Origin: Candidatus Nomurabacteria bacterium
Lineage (GTDB): Bacteria > Patescibacteriota > Minisyncoccia > Phycocordibacterales > CAIZLB01
DNA: 42,040 nucleotides
NCBI GenBank assembly: GCA_943356525.1
Contig: CALRFG010000003.1
Coordinates: forward strand, 45,709-87,748
Reading direction: 5' to 3'
Made by a program: the position numbers and the translations under genes. The notes under the pieces were generated by a model, which had not been told where the DNA came from, did not search any database, and was given only the letters and a program-made list of their open reading frames with translations. Each line of letters begins with the position of its first letter. Within the stretch, counting starts at the first letter, position 1. Positions 4,867 through 41,295 of the stretch are shown here, one piece after another.

Positions 4867-5796
4867 TTAGCCTTTAACACATATATTATATTTAGTTACA
4901 GTTTCGTTAAAATTATTGATTATAACTCTCAATTTATTTAATCTTTCATTATAGTTATTAACTATAGTATTGTAATCATTTATATATTCTTTTGTTATTG
5001 AAGGATCAGACTCTATAACGCCAGCTCTTTTCTGTAACTCTCTTTCATCAGCCTCTAAAGCAACTTTTTCTGTATTAATATTTTCCTGAACAATTGCATC
5101 TATCTCATCACATAAAGGTATAGGTTTGGCAAAATGCTGTACAGCCATCCATTGTTTTTGACCTTTATAATCTCCTATACCTACAGCAGAACCTATCTCG
5201 GTGTATTTAGGATTTAATATGTTTGCTCTATGTCCAGGACTATCCATCCAGGCTTGCACCAATAGCTTATCTGTTTGAAAAATACCTAAGGCTAAGTTCT
5301 CACCAACTATTTGAAATTTATAATTGGCCGACTTGATTAAATCTGCCGCAGTTTTACCATCGGGGGCATTATGTTCAAAATATTGTCCAGTAAACATATC
5401 GTCTGTTTTCTCTGTTGCAGAACTAGTCAGTTTTGTATTTTTGGTTAGCGGATTTAAACCAGCCTTTGTTCTTTCAATATTTGTATAATAAATAATTCCA
5501 TCAATACTTATTTTAGCTGAATTTTTAGGTTTTTCGGCAACACCTTCTTGTGCAAAAGCTTTAACCGTAGTTGCTATTTGTGAACTAGTTGTAGCACCTA
5601 AACCTCCAGTAAAATCTTGATTGTTTATTTTATTATAAATATCGTCAGTTGATATGTTTGTATCTTTACCTATACTTTTAAAAAAAATCTTTGTATTTTC
5701 AACCCTATCCTGAAACCATGAGCTATTTTTTTGTATTAAAAATAAGCCAAGCATTATCAATATAAATATGATTATGTAGCGTATTATTCTAAACAT
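4867..5796 (-). CDS. CAP/SCP-domain (PR-1-like) extracellular protein
   Basis: N-terminal TM/signal; INY..NIERTKAGLNPL, EHNAPDGKT, GENLA, WMDSPGHRANILNPKYTEIG, W.AVQHF. Confidence 0.93.
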   Translation of the reverse strand: MFRIIRYIIIFILIMLGLFLIQKNSSWFQDRVENTKIFFKSIGKDTNISTDDIYNKINNQDFTGGLGATTSSQIATTVKAFAQEGVAEKPKNSAKISIDGIIYYTNIERTKAGLNPLTKNTKLTSSATEKTDDMFTGQYFEHNAPDGKTAADLIKSANYKFQIVGENLALGIFQTDKLLVQAWMDSPGHRANILNPKYTEIGSAVGIGDYKGQKQWMAVQHFAKPIPLCDEIDAIVQENINTEKVALEADERELQKRAGVIESDPSITKEYINDYNTIVNNYNERLNKLRVIINNFNETVTKYNICVKG

Positions 5797-32040: not shown

Positions 32041-32622
32041 TTAAAAGTCTATTTTATTATACAAATTATTTAAATTTATTTTTTCGGTATCAAACCAAGC
32101 GGATAAATCTTTCTTTTCTTTTTTTAATACCTCTTCGATTATGATTTTATCAACAAACCCTTGTAAACCCCTAATATAAACAATAAAAAAAGTATTTATC
32201 TTATTTAGCATATCTACTTTATCAATATCATTGCTTTTAACTATATAAATAATAAATTTACATAGGTGAATAATCATATCGTATATCTCGGTATTGATAT
32301 TTTCAAAATAATCTCTTTCATCGTTGAAGAACAAACCTTCTGCCAATCTTAGAAACTGCACTATACTTTTTGATCCCGCAAAGGCAAACTTATGCTGCAC
32401 ATCAGTTAGTCTAAAAAACTCTTTACCTCTTACTACAGATATTTTATTAACCGAGAATGCTTTTATGTTTCCTTTGAGTTTAGAGCTCTCTTTTCTAAAA
32501 CTTGTTGCTATGATATTGATAACTCCAAATTTATCAGAAAAGGCTTTTATTAAAGAGTCGTTTTCTTGAATATTTTTTATATCAAATATGATGCAATTTG
32601 TCTCATATATAGTATAAACCAT
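32041..32622 (-). CDS. RecO-like DNA repair protein
   Basis: N-terminal OB-like segment, INIIATSFRKESSKLKGNIKAFSVNKISVVRGKEFFRLTDV; located just downstream of ileS. Confidence 0.65.
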   Translation of the reverse strand: MVYTIYETNCIIFDIKNIQENDSLIKAFSDKFGVINIIATSFRKESSKLKGNIKAFSVNKISVVRGKEFFRLTDVQHKFAFAGSKSIVQFLRLAEGLFFNDERDYFENINTEIYDMIIHLCKFIIYIVKSNDIDKVDMLNKINTFFIVYIRGLQGFVDKIIIEEVLKKEKKDLSAWFDTEKINLNNLYNKIDF

Positions 32623-32626
32623 TACT

Positions 32627-35600
32627 TTAAATTTTTGTTACAAATATTTCCTCTGATTCACTTTTAATTATGTCTAATTTGTCTGAGTTTACAGATGACT
32701 TTATCATATCTGTAAAAGCTATTATATTTTCTTTTGTTTTTAAGATTAGAGAAATTTTATCACTTGGCATTAAGTTAAGTTCTTTTCTTTTTGATTGTAT
32801 TTCACGAATAATATCTCGAACAACACCTTCTTGTCGCAGATATTCTGAGATATTTGTATCGATTGATATCTCTATTCCTTCTATAACAGATTTAACATTC
32901 AACTCATCCTTTATAATTTCTATATAAATATTTTCCATTATCTCTTTTTTTACAGATATAGACTCTAAAGGTTGTCTTACTTTTATACCGGCTTTATTTC
33001 GTAAGGCCAAACCTTGCTCTATAACTTGGCGAGTTTGTGTCATTTTCTCAAGTACTAAAATATCTTTTATATCTCTACTCTCAGGCCAATCTTCTAGATG
33101 AACTGATTCTTTCATATCTTTTATATTTGCAAAATCTTTAGCAAAAAGATATATCTCTTCAGCCATAAATGGTGTAAACGGAGCGATAACTTTAGACAAA
33201 GTTATGAGAACTATCAACAAGTTTTTGGTTACAATTTCATCTTCAACCCCCTTGAAACGATCACGACAACGTCTCAAATACCATGTTGAAAGCTCGTCCA
33301 CAAAATCAAGTATTGGTTTTGCAGCTCTGTCTATTTGATAAATATCTAGATTACTTGTTACCTCTTTTACAAGAGTGTTTAATTTTATCTCAATCCATGC
33401 ATCAAGCTCATTTATATTTGAAAAATTATTATTAATATCTATATCAAGATTTTTAACTCCATACATTTCTAAGAACGAGATTGTATTTGAAATCTTATTG
33501 AAGAATTTATTATTTATTTCATTTAATAACTTTTGGGAAAATGCATATTCCTCCGCGCGAGTTACGGGAGATGAAAGTAAGAAATACCTTAGAGAATCTG
33601 CGCCAAATTCTTCAACCACAGGCATTAGTTCTGCATAATTTCCTAAACTCTTTGACATCTTTTTTCCATCTTCTGCCAAAACCATACCACTAACTATCAC
33701 GTTTTTAAATGGAGCCTTATCAAATAATGCTACCGACATAAAAAGCATATAGTAAAACCAACCACGAGTTTGGTCTAAACTCTCTGCAACAAAGTCTACT
33801 GTTAAGTTTTTCACAAAATCTTTTTGTCCTGCATCATCAAAATCAAATGGATAATGAACTGATGAAAAAGGCATAGATCCTGCATCATACCAAACATCTA
33901 ACACTTCAGGTAATCTTTTATAGACCTCCCCATTTACTTCGAATATCACTTCGTCAATATAAGGTCTGTGAAAATCAAGTTCAAAATCATCATTATGTGG
34001 AATGAAGGCAAAATCTATATTTAAATAAGAGGCTGGTTCTATTATTTCATAAACTTTATTTCCTTTTATGATTTCTTCAAGATTATCACCATTTGCAACA
34101 TGTTGTAAATTGTAAACACAACCTTCATGTGTAATTATCAATATATTTTTATTTTTATACCTCTCATCTATTTCATAAAAAAACTTAGCTATACGTTTTT
34201 TTACATCAGCAAGGCTTTCTCCATTTGGAAATACTTTGATAAACTTTTCTGAATTATTTGCTGTAAACGCACTGTAACTCTTATCACTTTGTCCGTCTAA
34301 ATCACCGTATTGTTGCTCTATTAACCTATCATCTATTTTTATCTCGATATCTTTTCCTGTTTTTTCTTTTATTATTTGTTTTACTATATCTGCTGTTTCC
34401 TGGTTACGGATTATAGGTGATGAGTAAATAATATCAGGAATATTATTTTCTGTTATCATTTTCTCTACAGAAACTTTAACATCTTCCTTACCCTTAGGGG
34501 TGATGTGATGACGAGATGAAAACTCTAAACCTGAACTCATAACTGATTCTATAAGATGCGTAGCTTCACCGTGACGCATTACTGTATATGTATTTCGTCT
34601 TGTTTTATTTTTTATATCATTAACACCTCCTAAGCAAACAATTTCTCCAGTATCTTGACCTTTCCATATAGGAAGTGGTGTCCCCCAATAACGACTACGT
34701 GATACTGCCCAGTCGCGATTATTTTCAAGCCATGAATGGAGTCTTTTATGTCCTATCTCATCTGGATACCAGTTTATACCGTTGTTCACTTCTATCATTC
34801 TATCTTTCACGGCTGTAGTTTTTATAAACCATGATGAAGTAGCATAGTTTAACAAAGGTGTTTTACATCTCCAACAATGTGGGTATGCGTGGACGTATTT
34901 TTCTTTTGCAAATAAATAACCATTATGTGCTAAATACTTTATAACTTCAATATCAGCTTTTGAATGATCGTTTATTGGTTTAACCGATCCAGAAAAATCT
35001 TTCACCTCAGATATAAATTCTCCTTTGGAATCTACATGTTGTATAAAAGGTAAATGTTCACTTTTTCCCAACTTTAAATCATCATCTCCAAAAGCTGGGG
35101 CAATATGTACTACACCTGTACCGTCTGTATCTGTTACAAAATCAGCGTGATATATTTTCCAGCCAGTATTAATATCACTTATCTGAGTATCAGTACCTAT
35201 TTCATAATTAAATATTCTTTCATACATTGACCCAACCAACTCCTCTCCTTTTATTTCTTTTATAACAGAAAATTCTTCACCTTCCTTTTTGAATGTGTCA
35301 ATTTTTTCAAAAGAAGATTTTAATATGATTATTTTCCTTGTTCCTGTATCAATTTGTAAATATATAAAATCTTTATTGATTGCCAATGCAACGTTTCCCG
35401 GCAATGTCCAAGGTGTAGTTGTCCAAGCAATGATAGATGAATCTTTGTATTCACCTTCTGTTATGCGGAAATAAACATAAGCAGATAAATCGCTTATATC
35501 TTTATAACCTTCTGTTACTTCGTAGTTGGATAATACAGTCTCACAATGTGGACACCATGGCATAACCTTATACCCTTCATATACTAAACCTTTATTATAT

Positions 35601-36076
35601 AGCTCTTTAAAAGCCCAAAGATTTGACTCCATGTATGTTGCATCAAGTGTTCTATAGTCATTATCCATATCCACCCAACGCCCAAGTTTTGGAATAATTT
35701 TTTTCCAACCATCGCGAAATTTGAATACTGAAGCTCTAGCTGTTTCATTAAATTTTCCAATACCAAATTCTTCAATGTCCTTTTTACCTTTGAAACCTAA
35801 GGTTTTCTCAGCAAGACTTTCTATTGGTAAACCATGAGTATCCCAACCCCAAGAACGAGGTACTTTATACCCTCTCATGGTCTTATACCTAGGATACATA
35901 TCTTTTATTGCTGTAGGTAGGGCGTTTCCAAAGTGGGGTAAGCCTGTAGCATACGGAGGACCATCATAGTAACGAAAAGCTTCCTGATCTTTATTTTTAT
36001 CAAGACTTTTTTGAAAAATGTTGTTATCCTGCCAATATTTAAGTATTGCTGATTCACGCTCATTTGGAGTTTTCAT
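32627..36076 (-). CDS. ileS: Isoleucyl-tRNA synthetase with inserted histidine-phosphatase domain
   Basis: PHFGNAL (HIGH), WTTTPWTLPGN editing motif, DWAVSRSRYWGTPLPIW, KKMSKSLGN; inserted RHGEA domain, aa about 494-697. Confidence 0.96.
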   Translation of the reverse strand: MKTPNERESAILKYWQDNNIFQKSLDKNKDQEAFRYYDGPPYATGLPHFGNALPTAIKDMYPRYKTMRGYKVPRSWGWDTHGLPIESLAEKTLGFKGKKDIEEFGIGKFNETARASVFKFRDGWKKIIPKLGRWVDMDNDYRTLDATYMESNLWAFKELYNKGLVYEGYKVMPWCPHCETVLSNYEVTEGYKDISDLSAYVYFRITEGEYKDSSIIAWTTTPWTLPGNVALAINKDFIYLQIDTGTRKIIILKSSFEKIDTFKKEGEEFSVIKEIKGEELVGSMYERIFNYEIGTDTQISDINTGWKIYHADFVTDTDGTGVVHIAPAFGDDDLKLGKSEHLPFIQHVDSKGEFISEVKDFSGSVKPINDHSKADIEVIKYLAHNGYLFAKEKYVHAYPHCWRCKTPLLNYATSSWFIKTTAVKDRMIEVNNGINWYPDEIGHKRLHSWLENNRDWAVSRSRYWGTPLPIWKGQDTGEIVCLGGVNDIKNKTRRNTYTVMRHGEATHLIESVMSSGLEFSSRHHITPKGKEDVKVSVEKMITENNIPDIIYSSPIIRNQETADIVKQIIKEKTGKDIEIKIDDRLIEQQYGDLDGQSDKSYSAFTANNSEKFIKVFPNGESLADVKKRIAKFFYEIDERYKNKNILIITHEGCVYNLQHVANGDNLEEIIKGNKVYEIIEPASYLNIDFAFIPHNDDFELDFHRPYIDEVIFEVNGEVYKRLPEVLDVWYDAGSMPFSSVHYPFDFDDAGQKDFVKNLTVDFVAESLDQTRGWFYYMLFMSVALFDKAPFKNVIVSGMVLAEDGKKMSKSLGNYAELMPVVEEFGADSLRYFLLSSPVTRAEEYAFSQKLLNEINNKFFNKISNTISFLEMYGVKNLDIDINNNFSNINELDAWIEIKLNTLVKEVTSNLDIYQIDRAAKPILDFVDELSTWYLRRCRDRFKGVEDEIVTKNLLIVLITLSKVIAPFTPFMAEEIYLFAKDFANIKDMKESVHLEDWPESRDIKDILVLEKMTQTRQVIEQGLALRNKAGIKVRQPLESISVKKEIMENIYIEIIKDELNVKSVIEGIEISIDTNISEYLRQEGVVRDIIREIQSKRKELNLMPSDKISLILKTKENIIAFTDMIKSSVNSDKLDIIKSESEEIFVTKI
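33987..34606 (-). other. Histidine-phosphatase/PGAM-like domain inside ileS
   Basis: TYTVMRHGEAT, YSSPIIRNQETADIV, DRLIEQQYGDLDGQ, FPNGESLADVKKRI, ILIITHEGCVYNL. Confidence 0.9.
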
Positions 36077-36178: not shown

Positions 36179-36925
36179 TTATTCCTGCCCCTTCTTCATA
36201 TAACCTGTAAACGCCTGCATTATTTCAAGTGGTATTGTAAACACAACAGTATTACTTGAGTCGGATGATATGTCGTTTATTGACTGTAATGTTCTTAAAT
36301 GAAGTGCACCTGGTGTAGCTGATAAAGTCTTTGCTGCTTCAGCCATATTTTGTGATGCAGCCAACTCTCCTTCTGATGTTATGATCACAGCTCTTTTCTC
36401 TCTTTCTGCCTCAGCTTGTTTTGCGATAGTTCTTTCCATATTTTCAGGAAGCTTAACATCTTTAAGTTCTACTGATGATACATCAAGTCCCCATGAAGCA
36501 GATACTTCTTCAACAAGTGCTTCTATACGATCAGCAACTTTATCTCTACTTGCCAACAATTCATCAAGAGTAACTTCACCTACAACATTTCTCATGGTTG
36601 TTTGTGCATATTGTAGAACCGCATATCTGAAGTTTTCTATCTCAAGTATAGCTTTCTCTGCATCTGCAACTTTATAGTAAATAACAGCGTTTACGTTCAC
36701 AGGGACATTATCTTTTGTGATAGCGTTTTGATCAGGAACATCTACTGCTTTAGTTCGAAGATCTATCTTTTGATAAGATTGGATAATAGGAATAACTATT
36801 CTCCATCCAGGGTTCATTGTTTTATGAAATTTTCCAAACATAAATTTTAACCCCTTTTCATATTGGTTAATTTGGCGAATTGAGATTAAAAGTATAAGTA
36901 TGATAATAATAATTATTGTAGGCAT
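36179..36925 (-). CDS. Slipin/stomatin-like SPFH-domain protein
   Basis: RQINQYEKGLKFMFGKFHKTMNPGWRIVIPIIQSYQKIDLRTKAVDVPDQNAITKDNVPVNVNAVIYYKV; GEVTLDELLASRDKV. Confidence 0.94.
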   Translation of the reverse strand: MPTIIIIIILILLISIRQINQYEKGLKFMFGKFHKTMNPGWRIVIPIIQSYQKIDLRTKAVDVPDQNAITKDNVPVNVNAVIYYKVADAEKAILEIENFRYAVLQYAQTTMRNVVGEVTLDELLASRDKVADRIEALVEEVSASWGLDVSSVELKDVKLPENMERTIAKQAEAEREKRAVIITSEGELAASQNMAEAAKTLSATPGALHLRTLQSINDISSDSSNTVVFTIPLEIMQAFTGYMKKGQE

Positions 36926-41219: not shown

Positions 41220-41295
41220 GCGTTCGTAGCTCAGTCGGTAGAGCACCTGCCTTTTAAGCAGAGGGTCGTAGGTTCGATTCCTACCGGACGCACCA
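41220..41295 (+). tRNA. tRNA-Lys (anticodon UUU), CCA encoded
   Basis: GCGTTCG/CGGACGC acceptor, D-arm AGCTCAGTCGGTAGAGC, anticodon loop with TTT between CTGCC and GCAG, T-arm GTAGGTTCGATTCCTAC, A-CCA. Confidence 0.97.

Follow-up and report, generated by a model that had tools for sequence, protein, structure and literature searches.

Aminoacyl-tRNA synthetases carry inserted editing domains, and the question raised by this locus is what an isoleucyl-tRNA synthetase (IleRS) might do with an inserted histidine phosphatase (HP). The window, i.e., the whole analysed stretch of 42,040 nucleotides from Candidatus Nomurabacteria bacterium, contains ileS at 32627..36076 on the (-) strand, to which all features of this gene given below also belong. 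The gene encodes a protein of 1149 amino acids in one frame without internal stop, which scored 834.5 bits with the NCBIfam ileS equivalog TIGR00392 (cut-off 621.4) and is thereby a member of that family. Pfam gave tRNA-synt_1 (E 5e-126), His_Phos_1 (PF00300) nested at residues 499-666 (E 4.7e-21, 75.8 bits vs cut-off 21.7), and Anticodon_1 (PF08264) for the anticodon-binding domain at residues 892-1039 (32960..33403, E 1.1e-27). These are the three matches that the first-pass annotation, made from the letters alone, had expected for a phosphatase nested in a complete and continuous IleRS. The CP1 editing domain, at approximately residues 190-400 (34877..35509), matched PDB chains 1wk8 and 1wny. 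The synthetase motifs had been described as intact, which is correct for TTTPWTLPGN in the editing domain and for KMSKS, read from the sequence in its canonical form at residues 806-810 (33647..33661), but not for the HIGH signature. The latter reads HFGN (residues 48-51, 35924..35935), a variant common to the window protein, L032, and L041. The AlphaFold2 model of the whole protein had a pLDDT of 90.7 and a pTM of 0.85. According to PF00133 matches and frame lengths the window protein is the sole IleRS found in the 626 kb, 92%-complete source genome, and its PF00300 match is the only one there. The neighbours of ileS are a SPFH/band-7 protein upstream (36179-36925) and RecO downstream (32041-32622), while a tRNA gene is located near the window end (41220-41292). 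In three other loci, L072, L076, and L083, ileS was split into two frames in the assembly by a frameshift, stop or sequencing error.

The synthetase body resembles IleRS2. Foldseek aligned it with the structure 8c8v from P. megaterium at E 3.4e-87 and TM 0.73/0.80, and with 1ile from T. thermophilus at TM_target 0.92. The split into HXGH and GXHH types, known for IleRS2 and linked to mupirocin hyper-resistance (PMC10485003), was found here too, since the examined Patescibacterial IleRS fall into these two types. The GXHH type is the mupirocin hyper-resistance form of IleRS2, and the HFGN of the window departs from the split. In this motif the window protein differs from the listed solved IleRS matches (8c8v, 1ile, and yeast 8wnd), which are also without a described phosphatase insert. 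As one part of the joint reading set out below, we tentatively regard the host of the insert as a bacterial type-2-like IleRS, so that the only IleRS of this cell would be a predicted two-enzyme protein.

Comparison with a profile of HP-less IleRS placed the insert, a branch-1 histidine phosphatase of about 205 amino acids, at residues ~496-700 (approximately 33977..34591); the bounds proposed at first, 33987-34606, were right within a few codons. We assign it to CP3, because the segment before it, RDWAVSRSRYWG (454-465), corresponds to the linker between CP2 and CP3 in yeast IleRS, where CP3 spans 459 to 526 and the linker lines the crevice of tRNA and active site (PMC7955072). The four elements of the superfamily active site that had been recognized by eye were all recovered. 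These are the RHG motif R501-H502-G503 (34568..34576), in which H502 is the expected phosphohistidine nucleophile, the second catalytic Arg R557 in SPIIRNQET (34406..34408), the acidic residue E587 in RLIEQQYG (34316..34318), the expected proton donor, and the second catalytic His H650 in ITHEG (34127..34129). An intein or another self-removing insert was ruled out, PF00300 being the sole Pfam domain within it.

The same active-site elements are shared by branch-1 HPs such as PhoE (1h2e), phosphoserine phosphatase (4ij5), CobC, and archaeal dPGM. Those enzymes are free-standing, whereas the window HP is nested in a tRNA synthetase and falls below every curated subfamily cut-off shown. It scored 58.5 bits as alpha-ribazole phosphatase CobC (cut-off 162.9), 50.7 as dPGM (cut-off 225), and 43.5 as the phosphoserine phosphatase PspA (cut-off 350), and these identities were rejected; the substrate can thus not be read off from the family. 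Replacement of a missing glycolytic phosphoglycerate mutase was ruled out as well. The genome holds a 510-aa PF01676 metalloenzyme sized like cofactor-independent PGM, and also an enolase, so the insert is not required as the glycolytic mutase.

Conservation of the insert was assessed in 110 first-copy IleRS inserts, mostly 25-40% identical to that of the window. The Arg and His of RHG were present in 109 of them, the remaining one being truncated, the second Arg and the second His in 110/110, and Glu at the acidic position in 107/109. In the full-length alignment of 53 sequences, R501, H502, S553, R557, R628, and H650 were invariant, like core synthetase positions, and the most conserved insert positions are the catalytic residues. 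Compared with L032, its nearest relative, the window gave pN/pS values of 0.23 (insert), 0.20 (HP core), 0.20 (editing domain), and 0.16 (remaining synthetase). Hence, change in the insert is about as slow as in the editing domain, and by these ratios the insert is under purifying selection. In the full-length AlphaFold2 model residues 496-700 showed the expected order of strands and helices with pLDDT mostly 90-97, while the HP domain folded alone from its single sequence, without alignment, gave a poor model (pLDDT 41) that was set aside. The predicted catalytic competence was thus upheld: with active-site residues kept in 97-100% of the 110 inserts and a model pLDDT of ~95 over most of the domain, the nested HP is very probably competent. 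Two departures were seen elsewhere. The ValRS copy L108 has Ser aligned at the position of the second His, and in a clade of free HPs (L153, L155, L156, L165, and L166) the Arg of RHG is replaced (PHG, VHG, AHG, SHG) and the other catalytic residues are kept.

An assembly chimera, which the first-pass annotation had named as a risk, and a misread frame were ruled out by L032, an independent MAG with 81% identity over the protein and 77% over the insert, and by the more than 100 other Patescibacteria assemblies with an insert at the same point. The expectation that databases may hold similar architectures was borne out; the architecture is not peculiar to one genome, as first presented, but common in Patescibacteria. 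Using the insert and its flank as query, HP-bearing frames of IleRS size were found in 15/16 sampled genomes of the same order, in 9/15 others of the same class, and in about 30 further genomes of the phylum sample; since most loci were retrieved by a query that contained HP, the share of HP is inflated. The scan of GTDB genomes gave at least 58 loci, mostly titled Parcubacteria, Paceibacterota, Adler-, Taylor-, Wolfe-, Zambryski-, Nomura-, Yanofsky-, Colwell-, Wildermuth-, Falkow-, and Peregrinibacteria, and some just "bacterium". The only match from another phylum among the matches listed, the "Spirochaetia" locus L034, is located on a contig of 8.5 kb and clusters, with short branches, with an insert from Wolfebacteria; it was rejected as an insert outside Patescibacteria, being probably mis-binned. 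Conversely, one genome of the same class, G205, had an insert-free IleRS and no HP match, and 101/380 Patescibacteria genomes lacked an HP match at E<=1e-6, so some of these bacteria can do without the function.

The insert and its host have separate histories. The host type switched between HXGH and GXHH three times on the tree for the synthetase region preceding the insert, four times on that for the region following it, and 19-20 times on the HP tree, while a more careful HP tree had at least eight changes forced by well-supported branches. A single clade for the HPs of GXHH hosts was rejected (p-AU 2.3e-06). The same grouping was rejected for the downstream synthetase part, although less strongly (p 0.005), and therefore the contrast in the numbers of changes is our main argument. 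In family f66, picked after the trees had been seen, one clade for the synthetase bodies was rejected (p-AU 0.002), whereas the HP inserts formed one clade with support 100/99. Co-inheritance of insert and synthetase was ruled out by the host-type changes together with the f66 tests. Since the two synthetase halves agree on the host type and the insert does not, the phylogenies indicate that the insert was exchanged between IleRS types, or was retained while the surrounding synthetase was replaced.

Several arrangements absent from the first-pass annotation were found. Within IleRS, HP occupies at least four sites (model positions 485-492, 505-512, ~541-546, and 658-675), of which 505-512 adjoins the first insert and 658-675 follows KMSKS, and some IleRS carry double or triple copies. 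HP was also found inside ValRS, in L106, L107, L108, L119, L188, L189, and L190, the last three called ValRS from sequence and L190 also by a Val_tRNA-synt_C match. In G223, a genome of the window's order, both IleRS (L007) and ValRS (L188) contain HP. Five label changes are required to place the ValRS copies on the HP tree, four of them forced by well-supported branches, and the IleRS copies are spread over several lineages as well. A single origin of all HP inserts was ruled out by these trees, which are based on ~180 columns, and HP was by this evidence captured several times, at least four times in ValRS. In the unbiased PF00300 survey of 380 Patescibacteria every characterised internal insertion among the matches listed was in IleRS or ValRS. 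LeuRS with HP was not found among the matches listed, four long frames of family f83 apart. The remaining HP fusions among the matches listed were end-to-end, with VTT, MFS, dehydrogenase, and Nudix partners. Thus, in L152 and L161 (family f61) HP is joined C-terminally to a VTT/DedA-type membrane domain, and in L191-L194, read by eye, the fusions are with an MFS transporter, a 2-hydroxyacid dehydrogenase plus dPGM-like domain, and a Nudix plus dPGM-like domain.

Domains of other kinds were observed in the same enzymes. In the Patescibacterial IleRS and ValRS of L098, L100, L106, L121, and L189 there are inserts of the Nudix, HAD, RBBP9-type serine hydrolase, and GNAT families, in some cases within the CP1 editing domain, and L100 has GNAT plus HP in one synthetase. 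Two further CP1 inserts, L105 residues 257-442 and L122 residues 242-365, had no significant Pfam match. A by-eye likeness of the former, 186 aa long, to CYTH got no significant Pfam support.

HP also occurs as a free gene. In L142 it ends 6 bp upstream of ileS, whose product has only IGSTKELGVKLKDLHRPYIDK at the insert position, and L141 has the same arrangement with a 14-bp gap before an insert-free ileS; in both, the HP gene is preceded by a frame ending like argS, as read by eye. In L143 the free HP gene is located ~0.9 kb upstream of an insert-free ileS. Immediately before this ileS there is a small HD-domain hydrolase gene (about 4870-5500), and a T-box leader suspected there by eye was not confirmed by Rfam. 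The free HPs of L141, L142, and L143 nest within the insert clade and thus look like released inserts. Another free HP of this clade, L139 in G174, is located away from ileS, and other free HPs were found in G257 and G282. Free Nudix-like (by eye), HP, and serine-hydrolase genes, families also found as inserts, are close together in L168 (1809-4220). Given the free HPs of several genomes and their lack in G205, the function is usually, not always, kept, and fusion is not obligatory. The occurrence in ValRS, in tandem, at other sites, and beside ileS speaks in favour of a module that can be separated, and against one that has to act through the IleRS active site.

The explanation we favour, with confidence just short of even, is that a complete, working, and separable HP module in CP3 is in the service of branched-chain aminoacylation. 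By the mechanism of the family, H502 would take the phosphate from a phosphomonoester, held by R501, R557, and H650, and E587 would protonate the leaving group. In this manner HP would clear away, close to the synthetase, a by-product or inhibitor that is small, phosphorylated, and probably nucleotide-like, an action which would need no covalent join to the synthetase. The substrate, including its tie to the charging of Ile and Val, is our guess. Service to branched-chain aminoacylation is favoured by the recurrence in IleRS and ValRS and by the free gene adjoining ileS, and the further inserts of such synthetases (Nudix, HAD, serine hydrolase, and GNAT) hint at the clearance of small compounds that are reactive or inhibitory. 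Points against are the genomes that do without HP, the free HP of G174, which belongs to the insert clade and is not beside ileS, the end-to-end fusions of HP with unrelated partners, the Ser of L108, and the MutT1 result given below.

The main rival is parking of a metabolic phosphatase. HP would then perform an ordinary metabolic dephosphorylation that has nothing to do with tRNA charging, and would only ride on a protein that is abundant and essential, with insertion-tolerant loops of IleRS and ValRS used as the site. This is possible, though we doubt it. Loops of class I synthetases do tolerate inserts, as the Nudix, GNAT, HAD, and serine-hydrolase domains landing there illustrate, free copies can stand apart from ileS, and the fusions with unrelated partners show HP to be fusion-prone in the phylum, so some couplings may be meaningless. 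On the other hand, the internal insertions among the matches listed are confined to IleRS and ValRS, at several sites and through several captures, while chance should also have reached LeuRS, MetRS, and others, none of which is among those matches; moreover, the free HP gene adjoins ileS in two genomes.

Distinctly less likely is repair or defence, in which toxins, phages or competitors would bring about phosphorylation or pyrophosphorylation of the synthetase, e.g., at the serine of KMSKS, or of the tRNA end, and HP would undo it. A position in CP3, next to the linker along the crevice (PMC7955072), and a separable, exchanged cassette would suit such an arms race, but the closest families are small-molecule phosphatases, and there is no reason why it should be restricted to the Ile and Val enzymes. 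Alarmone or starvation control, with HP degrading a signal nucleotide when branched-chain amino acids are scarce, is very improbable. The Nudix inserts that other IleRS of the phylum carry and the HD-domain gene of L143, which also has a free HP, point this way, but HP has no alarmone hydrolase signature, and the basis is one neighbourhood plus family analogy. A dead HP fold kept only as a structural spacer, for which the location in a connective peptide might speak, is close to refuted by the catalytic nature of the most conserved insert positions.

Returning to the favoured service to aminoacylation, the nearest precedents differ in their construction. Mycobacterial MutT1 likewise joins HP to another enzyme that handles nucleotides, a Nudix, but end-to-end and with a hydrolase, whereas the window HP is inserted in a synthetase (PMC11784022). 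In the reported assays the RHG domain of MutT1 lacked a phosphatase activity of its own (PMC11784022). An IleRS with an added enzyme domain is already catalogued as ileS_w_GNAT (NF040702); the enzyme there is an N-acetyltransferase, not HP, and the window protein is not a member (306 vs cut-off 1999 bits). No description of an HP insert in IleRS was found in a search of open-access PMC papers.

Overall, the nested, intact PF00300 domain and its predicted competence stood, while the intact HIGH and the view of the architecture as a feature of one genome did not. The capture by both IleRS and ValRS, the neighbour-gene form, and the exchange between IleRS types make chance fusion unlikely, and the insert appears to do a real job. 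A recurrent, catalytically conserved predicted phosphatase within the only IleRS of bacteria whose genomes are very small is undescribed in the open-access literature searched, and the module offers a direct, testable entry to chemistry tied to branched-chain aminoacylation. A wider reading, which we consider rather unlikely, is that an exchangeable phosphatase cassette, repeatedly placed on, in or beside the Ile and Val synthetases, destroys a specific phosphorylated compound made by or aimed at them. If true, such a cassette system, so far undescribed, would add a new layer to aminoacylation in Patescibacteria, one of quality control or of self-protection.
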